This document shows positions 2,182 to 41,165 of a stretch of DNA of 64,000 nucleotides, piece after piece. Position 1 is the first letter of the stretch; each line of letters begins with the position of its first letter. A program made the position numbers and the translations under genes. The DNA comes from Flammeovirga sp. SJP92 (lineage in GTDB: Bacteria; Bacteroidota; Bacteroidia; Cytophagales; Flammeovirgaceae), in assembly GCF_001583495.1 (NCBI RefSeq), contig NZ_LQAQ01000098.1, positions 124,001-188,000 of the forward strand, in the 5' to 3' direction. The notes beneath the pieces were generated by a model. The model was not told the origin of the DNA and made no database searches. It was given only the letters and a program-made list of their open reading frames with translations.

Positions 2182-3534
2182 ATGGGAAACCTTTTAATTA
2201 TCGACGACAACCCTTCCATTCATGCAACACTTGAGATAGTGTTGGAACCTTATTTTGATACGATTAAAAGCTTGGAAGATCCATTACAGATCATGAGAAC
2301 TTTGGCAGTAGAAGATTTTCATGTGGTTTTGCTGGATATGAATTTTTCTCCAGGGCTAAATACCGGAGCAGAAGGAGTACGTTGGTTGAAAAAAATTAAA
2401 GAGACTTATCCCAATATTTCGGTGGTGATGATGACGGCTTATGGTCATGTTGAATTGGCAGTGGAAACACTCAAAATTGGAGCATCAGATTTTATTTTAA
2501 AACCTTGGGACAACCGAAAATTGTTGGCAACAGTACAGTCGGCATTACAGTTGAGTGAATCAAAAGGGGAAATTCAACAACTAAAAACCAAAGCAAAAGC
2601 CTTAAGAAAAGAAGAGAATTCATTCCCAGAAATTATAGGTGAATCGGCTGTAGTGAAAAACATGCTTTCCTTGATCGCCAAAGTAGGAAAGACTGACACC
2701 AACATTTTGATCACTGGTGAAAACGGAACCGGAAAAGAATTAGTAGCCAAAGCACTGCATCATTATTCTAAAAGAAACCAAGAGCAATTGGTAGAAGTGG
2801 ATATGGGTGCCGTTTCGGAAACGCTTTTCGAAAGTGAATTGTTCGGTCATGTAAAAGGAGCTTTTACCGATGCACATCAAGATCGAATAGGTAAGTTTGA
2901 GTTGGCCAATAAAGGGTCTTTGTTTTTGGATGAAATCGGAAACTTATCTTTTTCCCTTCAAGCAAAATTACTAGCGGCTTTGCAAAATCGTCAAATCACA
3001 AAAGTAGGTGGTAATAAAGTAATCCCGATTGATATCCGATTAATTTCAGCCACCAACAAAAACCTTTTTAAAATGGTGGAAGATGAAGAATTCCGTCAGG
3101 ATTTACTGTACAGATTAAATACCATTCAGATAGAAGTTCCCGCCCTAAGAGACAGAGGAGATGATGTGATTTTACTTGCCAATCATTTTAAAGATCTATT
3201 GGCCCAGAAATACGATAAAGGAACATTAGAATTTACTGCTTCGGCAAAAGAGAAATTGATGAGCTATCATTGGCCGGGTAATATTCGTGAATTACAACAT
3301 ACGATAGAAAGAGCAGTGATTTTAGTAGATGGAAATGAAATCACACCGGACCTGATTGTTACTTCTGCCTCTGAAAACACAAATGTGAAAACATTGAACT
3401 TAGCACAGACGGAAGAAGTGTTAATCAAAAAAGCCTTGAAGAAGCATCCTCAGAATATTAGTGCAGCCGCTGAGGAATTAGGTGTGACACGTCAGACACT
3501 TTATAATAAGTTGAAAAAATTGGGGTTGTCATGA
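2182..3534 (+). CDS. Sigma-54-dependent response regulator, NtrC family
   Basis: A 450-residue activator. The receiver domain (about 1-120) has the acidic pair D8/D9, phospho-acceptor D52, T85 and K107. The AAA+ domain (about 150-380) has the Walker A motif GENGTGKE at 179-186 and the Walker B stretch LFLDEIG near 247. The sigma-54 contact loop reads GAFTDA (226-231) instead of the canonical GAFTGA. A Fis-type helix-turn-helix closes the protein (about 425-448). It overlaps the kinase gene by four bases (ATGA), so the two form a two-component system; the regulated genes are not obvious nearby. Confidence 0.93.
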   Translation: MGNLLIIDDNPSIHATLEIVLEPYFDTIKSLEDPLQIMRTLAVEDFHVVLLDMNFSPGLNTGAEGVRWLKKIKETYPNISVVMMTAYGHVELAVETLKIGASDFILKPWDNRKLLATVQSALQLSESKGEIQQLKTKAKALRKEENSFPEIIGESAVVKNMLSLIAKVGKTDTNILITGENGTGKELVAKALHHYSKRNQEQLVEVDMGAVSETLFESELFGHVKGAFTDAHQDRIGKFELANKGSLFLDEIGNLSFSLQAKLLAALQNRQITKVGGNKVIPIDIRLISATNKNLFKMVEDEEFRQDLLYRLNTIQIEVPALRDRGDDVILLANHFKDLLAQKYDKGTLEFTASAKEKLMSYHWPGNIRELQHTIERAVILVDGNEITPDLIVTSASENTNVKTLNLAQTEEVLIKKALKKHPQNISAAAEELGVTRQTLYNKLKKLGLS

Positions 3535-4847
3535 AAAAGATTTTCTATATAAAAATCATCATTACTTTATTACTGTTGATAATTCTAGGAGGATTGATTG
3601 TGCATTATCAACAACAGCCATATATGTTGATAACTTTTGTTTTGATGGTTACTGGGTTGATAACTTATCAACTTATTATCTTAAAAAATGCATTGAATCA
3701 AAGTATTCTGATTGTAGAAGCGATCGGTAATGAGGACTTAAGTTTTTTGAATGCGAAGAATTACCAACAGTTCGACAGCACCTATCAATATAGGCTTGAA
3801 AAGATTCAACACTCTTTTTCAAGAATTAAGAAAGACAGTATTCGACAGGAAAAGTACTTGGATTGGATCATAGAAAATCAAGATGTTGGTATCTGTACTT
3901 ATGATGAAAACGGCCACGTATTTCATGTCAATTCTTCTTTTAAAGAAAAAGTAAATCTCAGCGTTCTTACACATTTAAAACAACTCACTTCAAAAACGGC
4001 AATTACATCTGATTTAATTCAAAAAGCATTTAATCAAAATGCCTTAGAGCTAGAAAATTCTAATTTAGTACTGAAAGCGAGACAGTTATCACGTGAAGAT
4101 CAGACAATTTTTCTATTGACTTTACAGGACATTTCAAATGAGTTAGAAGAGAAAGAACACCTCTCCTACAGTAAACTAATCCGTGTTTTGACCCATGAGA
4201 TTATGAATGGGATGACTCCGATTATTTCACTTTCTGACAGTATGTTGATGATGATGACGGATGAGGAAAATGCTCCTTTACCTTTAGAAAACTTCAATCA
4301 GAAAATTATCAACACTAATGTGAAGAGCATTAAAGTGATCAATAGTCAGGCAGAAGGATTGATGAACTTTATCAACATCTACCGTTCGATTTCAAAGTTA
4401 CCAACACCCAAAATGAAAGAGATAAATGTTGATAACTTTATTCAAGAAGAACTGAATAGCTTTGAAGAAGTTATTCACAATCAAGATATCAACATAGATG
4501 TGATTAATGTGAATAAAGTTGAAGTCATACACGCTTTTGATCCCACATTAATTCACCAATGCTTGCATAACATTATCAAAAATGCCATTGAGGCAATGTC
4601 TGATGTAAATAACTCTAAGTTGACTATTGAATTTGAAAAGAAGGAACAATTAGTTATTCACATTACCAACAACGGTCCTATGATTCCTGAAGAGGAATTG
4701 AAACATATTTTTGTACCTTTCTTTACGACAAAAAACACTGGGAATGGAATTGGACTAGCATTGTGTAAGCAGATTGCAAGAGTGCATAAGGGGAGTTTAA
4801 GTGTGACTTCAGTGGAAGAAAAAACAGAATTTATAATAAAAATTTAA
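3531..4847 (+). CDS. Sensor histidine kinase, NtrY/NtrB-like partner
   Basis: 438 residues. Two membrane segments lie close together near the N-terminus (about 7-24 and 30-50) with almost no periplasmic loop, so sensing is probably intramembrane or cytosolic. A PAS-like region (about 115-200) precedes the HisKA motif LTHEIMNGM with the phosphorylatable His at 222. The ATPase domain shows the N box (KNAIEAM) and the G2 box (GNGIGLALC). Its start overlaps the stop of the sigma-54 activator, which indicates cotranscription and cognate signalling. Confidence 0.92.
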   Translation: MKKIFYIKIIITLLLLIILGGLIVHYQQQPYMLITFVLMVTGLITYQLIILKNALNQSILIVEAIGNEDLSFLNAKNYQQFDSTYQYRLEKIQHSFSRIKKDSIRQEKYLDWIIENQDVGICTYDENGHVFHVNSSFKEKVNLSVLTHLKQLTSKTAITSDLIQKAFNQNALELENSNLVLKARQLSREDQTIFLLTLQDISNELEEKEHLSYSKLIRVLTHEIMNGMTPIISLSDSMLMMMTDEENAPLPLENFNQKIINTNVKSIKVINSQAEGLMNFINIYRSISKLPTPKMKEINVDNFIQEELNSFEEVIHNQDINIDVINVNKVEVIHAFDPTLIHQCLHNIIKNAIEAMSDVNNSKLTIEFEKKEQLVIHITNNGPMIPEEELKHIFVPFFTTKNTGNGIGLALCKQIARVHKGSLSVTSVEEKTEFIIKI

Positions 4848-39310: not shown

Positions 39311-40012
39311 ATGAAAATCGATCAATCACAAGTCATCTATGAAGACAATCATTTAGTGGTTGTGAATAAAGCTCCAGGTATTCTTGTACAAGGGGATGAA
39401 ACAGGTGATGAAACTCTTTTGGATATTGTAAAAGAGTATATCAAAGAAAAATACAATAAGCCTGGTGCTGTATTTTTAGCACCTGTTCACCGTTTGGATA
39501 GACCTGTAAGTGGTGTTGTTGTTTTTGCCCGTACTTCAAAAGCGGCAGAAAGAATGGCGAAGATCTTTCAAGACCATAAGATTACAAAAAAATATATCGC
39601 TTTAGTTGGTAAGAAGCCTCAGTACGATGAGGATACAATGATCAACTGGATGAAGAAAGATCCGAAGAAGAACCGTTCTCATGTTTATCAGTCTGAGAAA
39701 AAAGGTGGTAAATATGTAGAGACGTATTATCAAATGCTAGGAAGAGTAGGTGATAACTACTGTTTGGAAGTAATTCCAAAGACAGGTCGTTCTCATCAAA
39801 TTCGTGCACAACTGGGTAACATTGCATCTCCGATTGTTGGTGATATGAAATACGGTGCTCCAAAAAGAATCATGAAAGGTAAATTAATTTTCCTTCATGC
39901 AAGAGAATTGGAATTCGAACATCCTGTGAAAAAAACGCCTGTACGTTTTACAGCGAAACTTCCTGATCATGATGTGTGGAGGAACTTCACAGAAATGGCG
40001 GCAAGTATCTAA
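39311..40012 (+). CDS. RluA-family pseudouridine synthase
   Basis: 233 residues with the catalytic motif HRLDRPVSG (Asp near residue 62) and the RluA signature RSHQIRAQL. There is no N-terminal S4 RNA-binding domain, so it is of the short RluA/RluC-like kind; whether it modifies rRNA or tRNA cannot be told. Probably cotranscribed with panB. No T-run terminator lies directly after it; the first is about 190 bases downstream. Confidence 0.92.
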   Translation: MKIDQSQVIYEDNHLVVVNKAPGILVQGDETGDETLLDIVKEYIKEKYNKPGAVFLAPVHRLDRPVSGVVVFARTSKAAERMAKIFQDHKITKKYIALVGKKPQYDEDTMINWMKKDPKKNRSHVYQSEKKGGKYVETYYQMLGRVGDNYCLEVIPKTGRSHQIRAQLGNIASPIVGDMKYGAPKRIMKGKLIFLHARELEFEHPVKKTPVRFTAKLPDHDVWRNFTEMAASI

Positions 40013-40060
40013 GAGCTTGTTTGAAACATCTATTTTAGTAAAAATCCACCCTTTCAGAAC

Positions 40061-40121
40061 GTGAGTTTATTAATTTCATCAACTATAGAACCGCTATTTT
40101 TTCTGAAATTAATTTCCTCAC
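40061..40121. repeat. Long imperfect inverted repeat after the RluA gene
   Basis: Arms of 18 bases: GTGAG and ATTAATTTCA pair exactly with TGAAATTAAT and CTCAC across a 3-base internal mismatch, with a 25-base loop. There is no T run. Confidence 0.6.
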
Positions 40122-40203
40122 AACCTAAAATGGAAAATTTTTACTTTTAAAATATATATTCCAAACATGCTCTAGTAAAAGCAGTTACTTATTCACATAA
40201 TGA

Positions 40204-40247
40204 TAAAAACCTCTGTATTTTCAGGATTGGAAATGCAGAGGTTTTTT
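40204..40247 (+). terminator. Terminator downstream of panB/RluA unit
   Basis: AAAACCTCTG...ATTT pairs with AAAT...CAGAGGTTTT with one T-G pair, followed by a run of T. It is about 190 bases past the RluA stop, so it ends either a long 3' untranslated region or a separate small RNA. Confidence 0.8.
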
Positions 40248-40261
40248 GGGTTGTCAACAAA

Positions 40262-40277
40262 TATGTTGGTAACTTTT
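40262..40277 (+). repeat. Perfect 16-bp inverted repeat, left arm
   Basis: TATGTTGGTAACTTTT is the exact reverse complement of 40453-40468. Together the arms enclose 207 bases containing three of the four DnaA boxes. No target-site duplication flanks them. Confidence 0.8.
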
Positions 40278-40307
40278 ATGAGAATCACCCATTGTGAATA
40301 ACTTAAC

Positions 40308-40316
40308 TTATCCACA
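40308..40316 (+). promoter_or_regulatory. DnaA box
   Basis: TTATCCACA, the strongest consensus form. It lies 6 bases from an opposite-facing box (40293-40301) and directly left of an AT-rich segment with the 15-base palindrome at 40317-40331. Confidence 0.6.
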
Positions 40317-40452
40317 TCAATATATTATTGAAATATTTTAAAAGATAGTGTTGATAGTGTGAATAACTAAATTCACATGTTTGTATAACGTTTTCAAATA
40401 GCTATTAATCAGTGGATTATAATGTTAGTAAAGTTTGAATAATAAGAAATGC

Positions 40453-40468
40453 AAAAGTTACCAACATA
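40453..40468 (-). repeat. Perfect 16-bp inverted repeat, right arm
   Basis: AAAAGTTACCAACATA, exact reverse complement of 40262-40277. It lies about 90 bases before the start of the membrane protein gene. Confidence 0.8.
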
Positions 40469-40535
40469 AGGAGTGAATAAAAGAACAGCCAACATTTTTG
40501 ATAAACTGATTTGTGAAAATAAATTTTATTCACTT

Positions 40536-40552
40536 ACTTTGAATTACAAAGT
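40536..40552 (+). promoter_or_regulatory. Shared operator-like palindrome, copy 1
   Basis: ACTTTG-N5-CAAAGT followed by ACTTTT, in a 37-base block (40521-40558) that is repeated before two more units. TTACTTTG inside it resembles the -7 box, so a protein bound here would block RNA polymerase. It ends 7 bases before the ATG at 40560. Confidence 0.6.
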
Positions 40553-40559
40553 ACTTTTT

Positions 40560-41165
40560 ATGAAAGAACAAGATTACATCAACGACTTAAAAGAAATCAA
40601 GGATATTATGAACCGTTCATCTCGGTTTATCTCCTTGAGTGGCCTCTCTGGAATCAGTGCTGGGATTTGTGCATTAATAGGAGCATACTTCGCTTATGAT
40701 ATTCTATATAATATCGGTTATGAAAGAAATATTATTAGTGGAAAAAAGATTGATGCCCTTATTATTACAGGTGCAGTAACATTATTGGCGGCGATTGGTT
40801 CTGCTTTATATTTTACATTTTCTGAAGCAAAGAAAAACGGTCAGAAGCTATGGGACCTTCAAGCGAAAAGGTTATTGATCAATTTGATGATACCACTGGC
40901 AACGGGCGGTTTACTGACATTGGCTTTAGTAGCAAAAGGATTTATTGGTTTAGCAGCTCCCCTGACTTTGATTTTTTATGGGCTTGCACTCGTGAATGCT
41001 AGTAAATATACCATCTCAGAACTACGTGGTCTTGGGATAATTGAAATAATTTTAGGACTTTTGGCGACGCAATTTATTGGATACGGTTTATGGTTCTGGA
41101 CAATAGGCTTTGGATTCTTGCATATTGCATATGGTCTATACATGTATTTTAATCCTCAAAAGTGA
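40560..41165 (+). CDS. Hypothetical multi-span membrane protein of the winged-helix/CreD locus
   Basis: 201 residues from the ATG at 40560; the longer frame from GTG 40473 runs through the operator and is unlikely. It begins MKEQDYINDLKEIKDIMNRSSRF and then has about six membrane segments. The family is not named here, but such proteins commonly precede a small winged-helix regulator in Bacteroidota. Its TGA overlaps the GTG start of that regulator, so the two are translationally coupled; the membrane protein may control the regulator (inference). Confidence 0.75.
   Translation: MKEQDYINDLKEIKDIMNRSSRFISLSGLSGISAGICALIGAYFAYDILYNIGYERNIISGKKIDALIITGAVTLLAAIGSALYFTFSEAKKNGQKLWDLQAKRLLINLMIPLATGGLLTLALVAKGFIGLAAPLTLIFYGLALVNASKYTISELRGLGIIEIILGLLATQFIGYGLWFWTIGFGFLHIAYGLYMYFNPQK

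Follow-up and report, generated by a model that had tools for sequence, protein, structure and literature searches.

A cluster of DnaA boxes downstream of the rluA gene of Flammeovirga sp. SJP92 is best read as a putative satellite site on the primary chromosome, about 107 kb from the presumed oriC, that would delay re-initiation by taking up DnaA and would not itself be an origin; we give this reading a probability of about 60%. The cluster lies in a stretch of 64,000 nucleotides (here called the window; positions 124001-188000 of contig C98, NZ_LQAQ01000098.1), taken from an assembly of 8,491,641 bases in 123 contigs (G000), in which dnaA is on a contig other than C98. Positions follow window numbering unless C98 is given. 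Nine Flammeovirga genomes (G000-G008) were compared, with two sequence forms counted as DnaA boxes, TTATNCACA (called exact) and TTATCAACA, and 21 rluA loci, fetched out of 49 non-genus genomes searched, served as the outgroup. The parts of the locus are as follows.

39311..40012, + strand: rluA-type RNA pseudouridine synthase gene (PF00849), left neighbour of the cluster in 9/9 genus genomes
40010..40178, no strand: dispersed inverted-repeat (MITE-like) element with a terminal inverted repeat, separating rluA from the boxes
40189..40197, + strand: DnaA box TTATTCACA, between rluA and the hairpin; invariant in G000, G003, G004 and G005
40205..40246, + strand: terminator-like hairpin and trailing T run, downstream of rluA; judged by eye on the inverted repeat and kept in the four-genome alignment
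40262..40277, no strand: left arm of a perfect 16-nt inverted repeat, containing the degenerate box TGTTGGTAA
40293..40301, - strand: DnaA box TTATTCACA; invariant in G000, G003, G004 and G005
40308..40316, + strand: DnaA box TTATCCACA; not conserved in G003-G005
40317..40350, no strand: AT-rich stretch, 29/34 A/T; not conserved in G003-G005
40358..40366, - strand: DnaA box TTATTCACA, half of TGTGAATAACTNAATTCACA; invariant in G000, G003, G004 and G005
40369..40377, + strand: weak box AAATTCACA, reading TAATTCACA in G003-G005
40453..40468, no strand: right arm of the 16-nt inverted repeat, pairing with 40262..40277

An earlier note on this DNA had reported four exact TTATNCACA matches, at 40189-40197 (+), 40293-40301 (-), 40308-40316 (+) and 40358-40366 (-), together with a 7-of-9 match at 40369-40377 (AAATTCACA), and all of these are present. 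Its estimate that 0.03 matches would be expected in 550 bases agrees with the genome as a whole, where 451 exact TTATNCACA (218 and 233 on the two strands) occur in 8,491,641 bases, and the region that it called gene-free is indeed without a listed reading frame of at least 80 amino acids from 40013 to 40472. To the right, a GTG-start reading runs from 40473, the ATG at 40560 being the likelier start. The three inner boxes, all exact, lie within 74 bases and are flanked by the arms of the 16-nt inverted repeat; those at 40293 and 40308 form an exact tail-to-tail pair within 30 bp, an arrangement that this genome has three times. Of 300 dinucleotide shuffles of the 450 bases that follow rluA, none reached the four boxes observed (TTATNCACA plus TTATCAACA). 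The description of 40317-40350 as having almost no G or C was overstated, as 5 of its 34 bases are G or C, and the 15-base palindrome described there has matching 6-base arms but a mismatched 3-base centre.

The left part of the reported region, 40013-40559, is occupied by the 162-bp MITE-like repeat, which is not part of the box cluster. With 40 of 176 candidates scored, this repeat has at least 61 matches in its own genome, some of them one element read both ways, and at least 21 matches, itself included, are near full length at 80% identity or more; it is absent downstream of rluA in G003, G004 and G005. Near C98:60670 there is a short palindromic sequence whose ends, by eye, resemble those of the repeat. 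Separately, an exact box lies within rluA itself at 39361-39369, and is found in the same place in G003, G004, G005 and G006.

Across the genus, the 450 bp downstream of the rluA orthologue contain 4 to 9 boxes (TTATNCACA or TTATCAACA) in 9/9 genomes, and the observed total was reached by 0/300 dinucleotide shuffles in each of the nine. By comparison, none of the 21 outgroup loci has a box cluster at rluA, 19 having no box and two having one. On these sequence comparisons, the cluster downstream of rluA is real and genus-wide, and its boxes are likely DnaA binding sites. Box alignments covered two groups, G000 with G003, G004 and G005, and G007 with G008. The earlier note had proposed conservation in close relatives as a check on the boxes; in the first alignment those at 40189, 40293 and 40358 stand as islands of identity in a diverged spacer, and conservation does not extend to the box at 40308. 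The G007/G008 alignment has its own common box islands, G001 and G006 each have a single exact TTATNCACA at rluA, the remainder being TTATCAACA, and box order and spacing vary between clades.

What lies to the right of the boxes bears on the reading that DnaA bound here affects a neighbouring gene, as a transcription factor or as a roadblock, which we regard as rather improbable. In the window, a membrane-protein-like gene starts just right of the cluster, PMC10950094 reports a case of DnaA blocking transcription where there is a terminator, and a roadblock would be possible at the rluA end, that end being constant. The right-hand neighbours (reading frames of at least 100 amino acids), however, are of five kinds among the nine genomes and convergent in 7/9, which makes it unlikely that the boxes serve a conserved promoter on that side; the idea that they control one constant promoter to the right was rejected because the neighbour varies.

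The earlier note had offered as its first reading that the cluster is the chromosomal origin, and clustered boxes do sit beside an AT-rich stretch in a gene-poor interval; moreover, in the two-contig assembly of G008, base 1 of the large contig is 11 kb from its rluA. The GC-skew check suggested at the time was run as four-fold-site skew split by coding strand, since plain GC skew of 20-kb stretches is noisy from gene orientation, and was applied to sampled stretches (260 to 800 kb each) of G000, G001, G006, G007 and G008. It points elsewhere. The sign of the skew is equal on both sides of the rluA cluster in G000 (+), G006 (+), G007 (+) and G008 (-); in G001, sampled near rluA on the origin side only, the nearest stretch starts 20 kb away and is negative. 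In all five genomes the switch from negative to positive skew lies about 70-107 kb from the cluster, at about 40-80 kb of C98 in G000, 4.75-4.80 Mb in G001, 3.13-3.17 Mb in G006, 3.43-3.47 Mb in G007 and 60-140 kb in G008. There are exceptions to the pattern: at 4.427 Mb G001 is positive within a negative arm, at 3.201 Mb G007 is near zero, at 3.152 Mb G006 is slightly negative just past the switch, and G008 fluctuates about zero from 40 to 140 kb. Inside the switch interval, all five genomes have box arrays, stronger than the rluA cluster, on either side of one TPR gene. Furthermore, such arrays are common to most of the other family loci, the outgroup loci lack a cluster at rluA, and the AT-rich core is not conserved in G003-G005. 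As regards an AT-rich unwinding element, the peak A/T content per 50 bp across the nine genomes is 40-45 at the rluA cluster and 45-47 upstream of the TPR gene. An oriC at the rluA cluster was rejected on the unchanged sign of the skew across it and the distance to the switch, and we consider an origin here highly improbable.

In G000, the arrays lie at C98:56.5-57.4 kb and C98:59.5-60.0 kb, which places them 64-67 kb to the left of the window and some 107 kb from the rluA cluster; about 3 kb beyond them in the same direction is mnmG (GidA family). This region, G000:C98:56500-60000, with its two box arrays around the TPR gene near mnmG, is the probable true oriC. The distance from the rluA cluster to the presumed oriC is about 70-107 kb in the six genomes in which both are on one contig (G000, G001, G002, G006, G007 and G008). 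A clean box cluster 107 kb off can be mistaken for the origin. Outside the genus, boxes were counted in the first 1.5 kb of each TPR-orthologue locus. Six of the seven other family loci fetched (G009, G010, G011, G012, G015 and G017) have 6 to 22 boxes upstream of the gene, the count for G017 falling partly inside the gene because its contig has just 525 bases upstream. G013, the seventh, has none upstream of its TPR orthologue, and the oriC array is therefore not family-wide. At 14 order-level TPR loci, the count is 7 to 15 in four (G040, G047, G054 and G055) and 0 to 4 in the other ten. TTATCAACA is commoner than TTATNCACA upstream of the TPR gene in 5/7 non-genus family loci (15 vs 7 in G012). 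We counted TTATCAACA as a DnaA box because it is abundant at the presumed oriC, which suggests that it may be a second accepted form.

As the start of chromosome copying most likely lies about 107 kb away, the rluA cluster looks like a satellite site. The other option in the earlier note, a titration or regulatory locus, is compatible with a cluster that is kept in nine genomes, is near to but distinct from the presumed oriC and has a variable right-hand neighbour. In the mechanism we propose, DnaA would bind the boxes of the rluA cluster in vivo; the locus, being near oriC, would be duplicated soon after initiation, the doubled boxes would take up freshly made DnaA, and this uptake would help to delay a second firing, as has been proposed for the clusters of Bacillus subtilis and for E. 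coli datA. Bacillus subtilis reportedly has oriC-proximal DnaA-box clusters (DBCs), a finding attributed to Okumura et al. 2012, and a DnaA-box cluster in Streptomyces is said to have been described by Smulczyk-Krawczyszyn et al. 2006. The rluA cluster is likewise a box cluster outside but near oriC, and, by description, it resembles the DBCs in comprising several boxes. The DBCs differ in belonging to another phylum and being associated with other genes, and one Flammeovirga satellite lies in coding sequence. The Streptomyces cluster, likewise compared by description, is also chromosomal, and PMC5742627 and PMC10950094 say that the clusters of both B. subtilis and Streptomyces repress untimely initiation.

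Several observations weigh against titration. Four boxes, as in G000, are few for it, the closest relatives have not kept the box at 40308, G001 and G006 rely on TTATCAACA, and looser clusters occur away from the origin in G008 and G006. In addition, PMC5295017 attributes a strong effect in B. subtilis only to the removal of all six clusters; it rates the role of the clusters as modest, clusters with significant roles not having been identified.

The position of the cluster is also what one would look for in a datA-like site, where boxes in one direction, together with a DNA-bending protein, stimulate DnaA to hydrolyse its bound ATP. Like datA, whose box 1 overlaps the glyV-X-Y terminator, the rluA cluster has origin-proximal boxes beside the terminator, here a terminator-like hairpin, of the upstream transcription unit. 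A further point in favour is that the own genome has a single PF00308 match, so that an Hda-like inactivator, Hda being a member of that family, is not seen. According to PMC5742627, datA needs boxes in the same direction, these being its essential ones, and a single IHF site. The rluA boxes, in contrast, are of mixed direction and variable spacing, and the E. coli IHF consensus occurs inconsistently, being found in 5/9 rluA loci and not in G000. Strict datA membership was rejected on these grounds, and we hold a datA-like function to be unlikely.

Also unlikely, in our judgement, is a DARS-like site, at which head-to-head boxes would pair two ADP-DnaA and recharge DnaA. Head-to-head boxes I and II are essential in DARS, according to PMC10380432, and such pairs occur at rluA in 5/9 species at a start-to-start spacing of 13 (G002, G007 and G008) or 16 (G001 and G006), near the 14 of E. 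coli DARS1 and DARS2. We measured the latter on fetched DNA (I-II 14, II-III 12, start to start), the assignment of boxes I-III being our own. The close pair, however, is missing in G000, G004 and G005 and weak in G003, no third box was found 12 bp beyond the second, where DARS1 and DARS2 have box III, pointing the same way as box II, and the E. coli DARS sites lie far from oriC (17.5 and 64 min vs 84.6 min). Strict DARS membership was rejected on the spacing, present in five genomes, weak in one and absent from three, and on the missing box at +12. We prefer simple titration to a catalytic complex of the datA or DARS kind because between clades the boxes are retained but change in order and spacing; given the mixed directions and the failed DARS spacing, the best fit would therefore be a counting-type satellite like the B. 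subtilis clusters.

Turning to the distribution of boxes along the chromosome, a strict threshold of at least three exact TTATNCACA per 400 bp was applied to sampled stretches of five genomes. Strict clusters concentrate near the presumed origin: 18 lie no farther than 150 kb from the presumed oriC (1,027,550 bases sampled) vs 0 in the 1,412,872 bases sampled beyond that distance. Thirteen of the 18 are in the oriC arrays, three are at rluA and two are in a histidine-kinase gene; the rluA clusters of G001 and G006 fall below the threshold. Inverted exact pairs within 30 bp number 35 in the nine whole genomes vs 11 for reversed control patterns, and are located at rluA (9), at the oriC arrays (7), in the kinase gene (4) and elsewhere (15). 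Looser clusters, of at least four TTATNCACA or TTATCAACA per 500 bp, also occur far from the origin, at 3.634, 4.932 and 5.102 Mb in G008 and at 3.353 Mb in G006. At G006:C1:3353055-3353610, about 215 kb from the presumed oriC, seven TTATCAACA or TTATTCACA sites lie mostly just past the end of a reading frame. For E. coli, PMC12371093 likewise describes a concentration of boxes near oriC.

The kinase gene is the second satellite in the window.

3531..4847, + strand: sensor histidine kinase gene (PF02518) with an intragenic box cluster

Its boxes, on both strands, are TTATCAACA starting at 3574, 3605, 3625, 4306, 4369 and 4427 and TTATTCACA at 4471, 4508 and 4654, the three TTATTCACA spanning 4471-4662. 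These nine compare with 1.7 expected under permutation of synonymous codons. All seven kinase orthologues found in the genus have an excess, with 6 to 10 boxes each, their counts being reached in 0/300 permutations in five and 0/200 in two. Nine distant homologues of the kinase from four other genera have 0 or 1 box, and no excess was seen in 17 control reading frames of the window (60 permutations each). The cluster is apparently kept by codon choice. An orthologue of the kinase was not found in G006 and G007 at E 1e-40, so that this satellite is not genus-wide. Where the two satellites can be placed, they are on the same side of oriC.

If the satellites do titrate DnaA, control by box clusters near the origin would extend beyond E. 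coli, B. subtilis and Streptomyces to a distant lineage, and the intragenic cluster would point to selection on codon choice for replication control. Replication timing in Bacteroidota seems little described, and among the titles and abstract openings searched we found no description of DnaA-box satellites in this phylum.

A broader proposal, which we regard as a very long shot, is a genus-specific form of initiator control in which replication of the cluster at the rluA terminator and of that in the kinase gene (7/9 genomes), soon after oriC has fired, would serve as a timer, resetting DnaA and licensing a second chromosome driven by Rep3. In Vibrio, replication of the crtS site triggers initiation on chromosome 2, and such a timer would be the DnaA-box counterpart of crtS. 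A crtS-like link between the satellites and chromosome 2 is conceivable, the one positive sign of it being their shared limits to the genus. According to PMC8653839, the second chromosome of Flammeovirga derives from a plasmid and its replication is of the RepA type, and we found Rep3 genes accompanied by repeated iterons on contig C2 of G001, G006 and G008 and on C12 of G007. In none of the nine genomes do the 600 bp downstream of rluA contain a close match to the Rep3 iteron core of chromosome 2; a motif common to the rluA cluster and the iterons was rejected, the best match, in G001 and G006, having 3 mismatches. Separately, the large chromosome contig of G001 itself contains a Rep3 initiator gene (C1:4302190), and one of similar size is on a small separate contig, G006:C3. 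Because the G001 gene is in the large contig and the skew at 4.427 Mb is odd, there are hints that G001 carries an integrated replicon.
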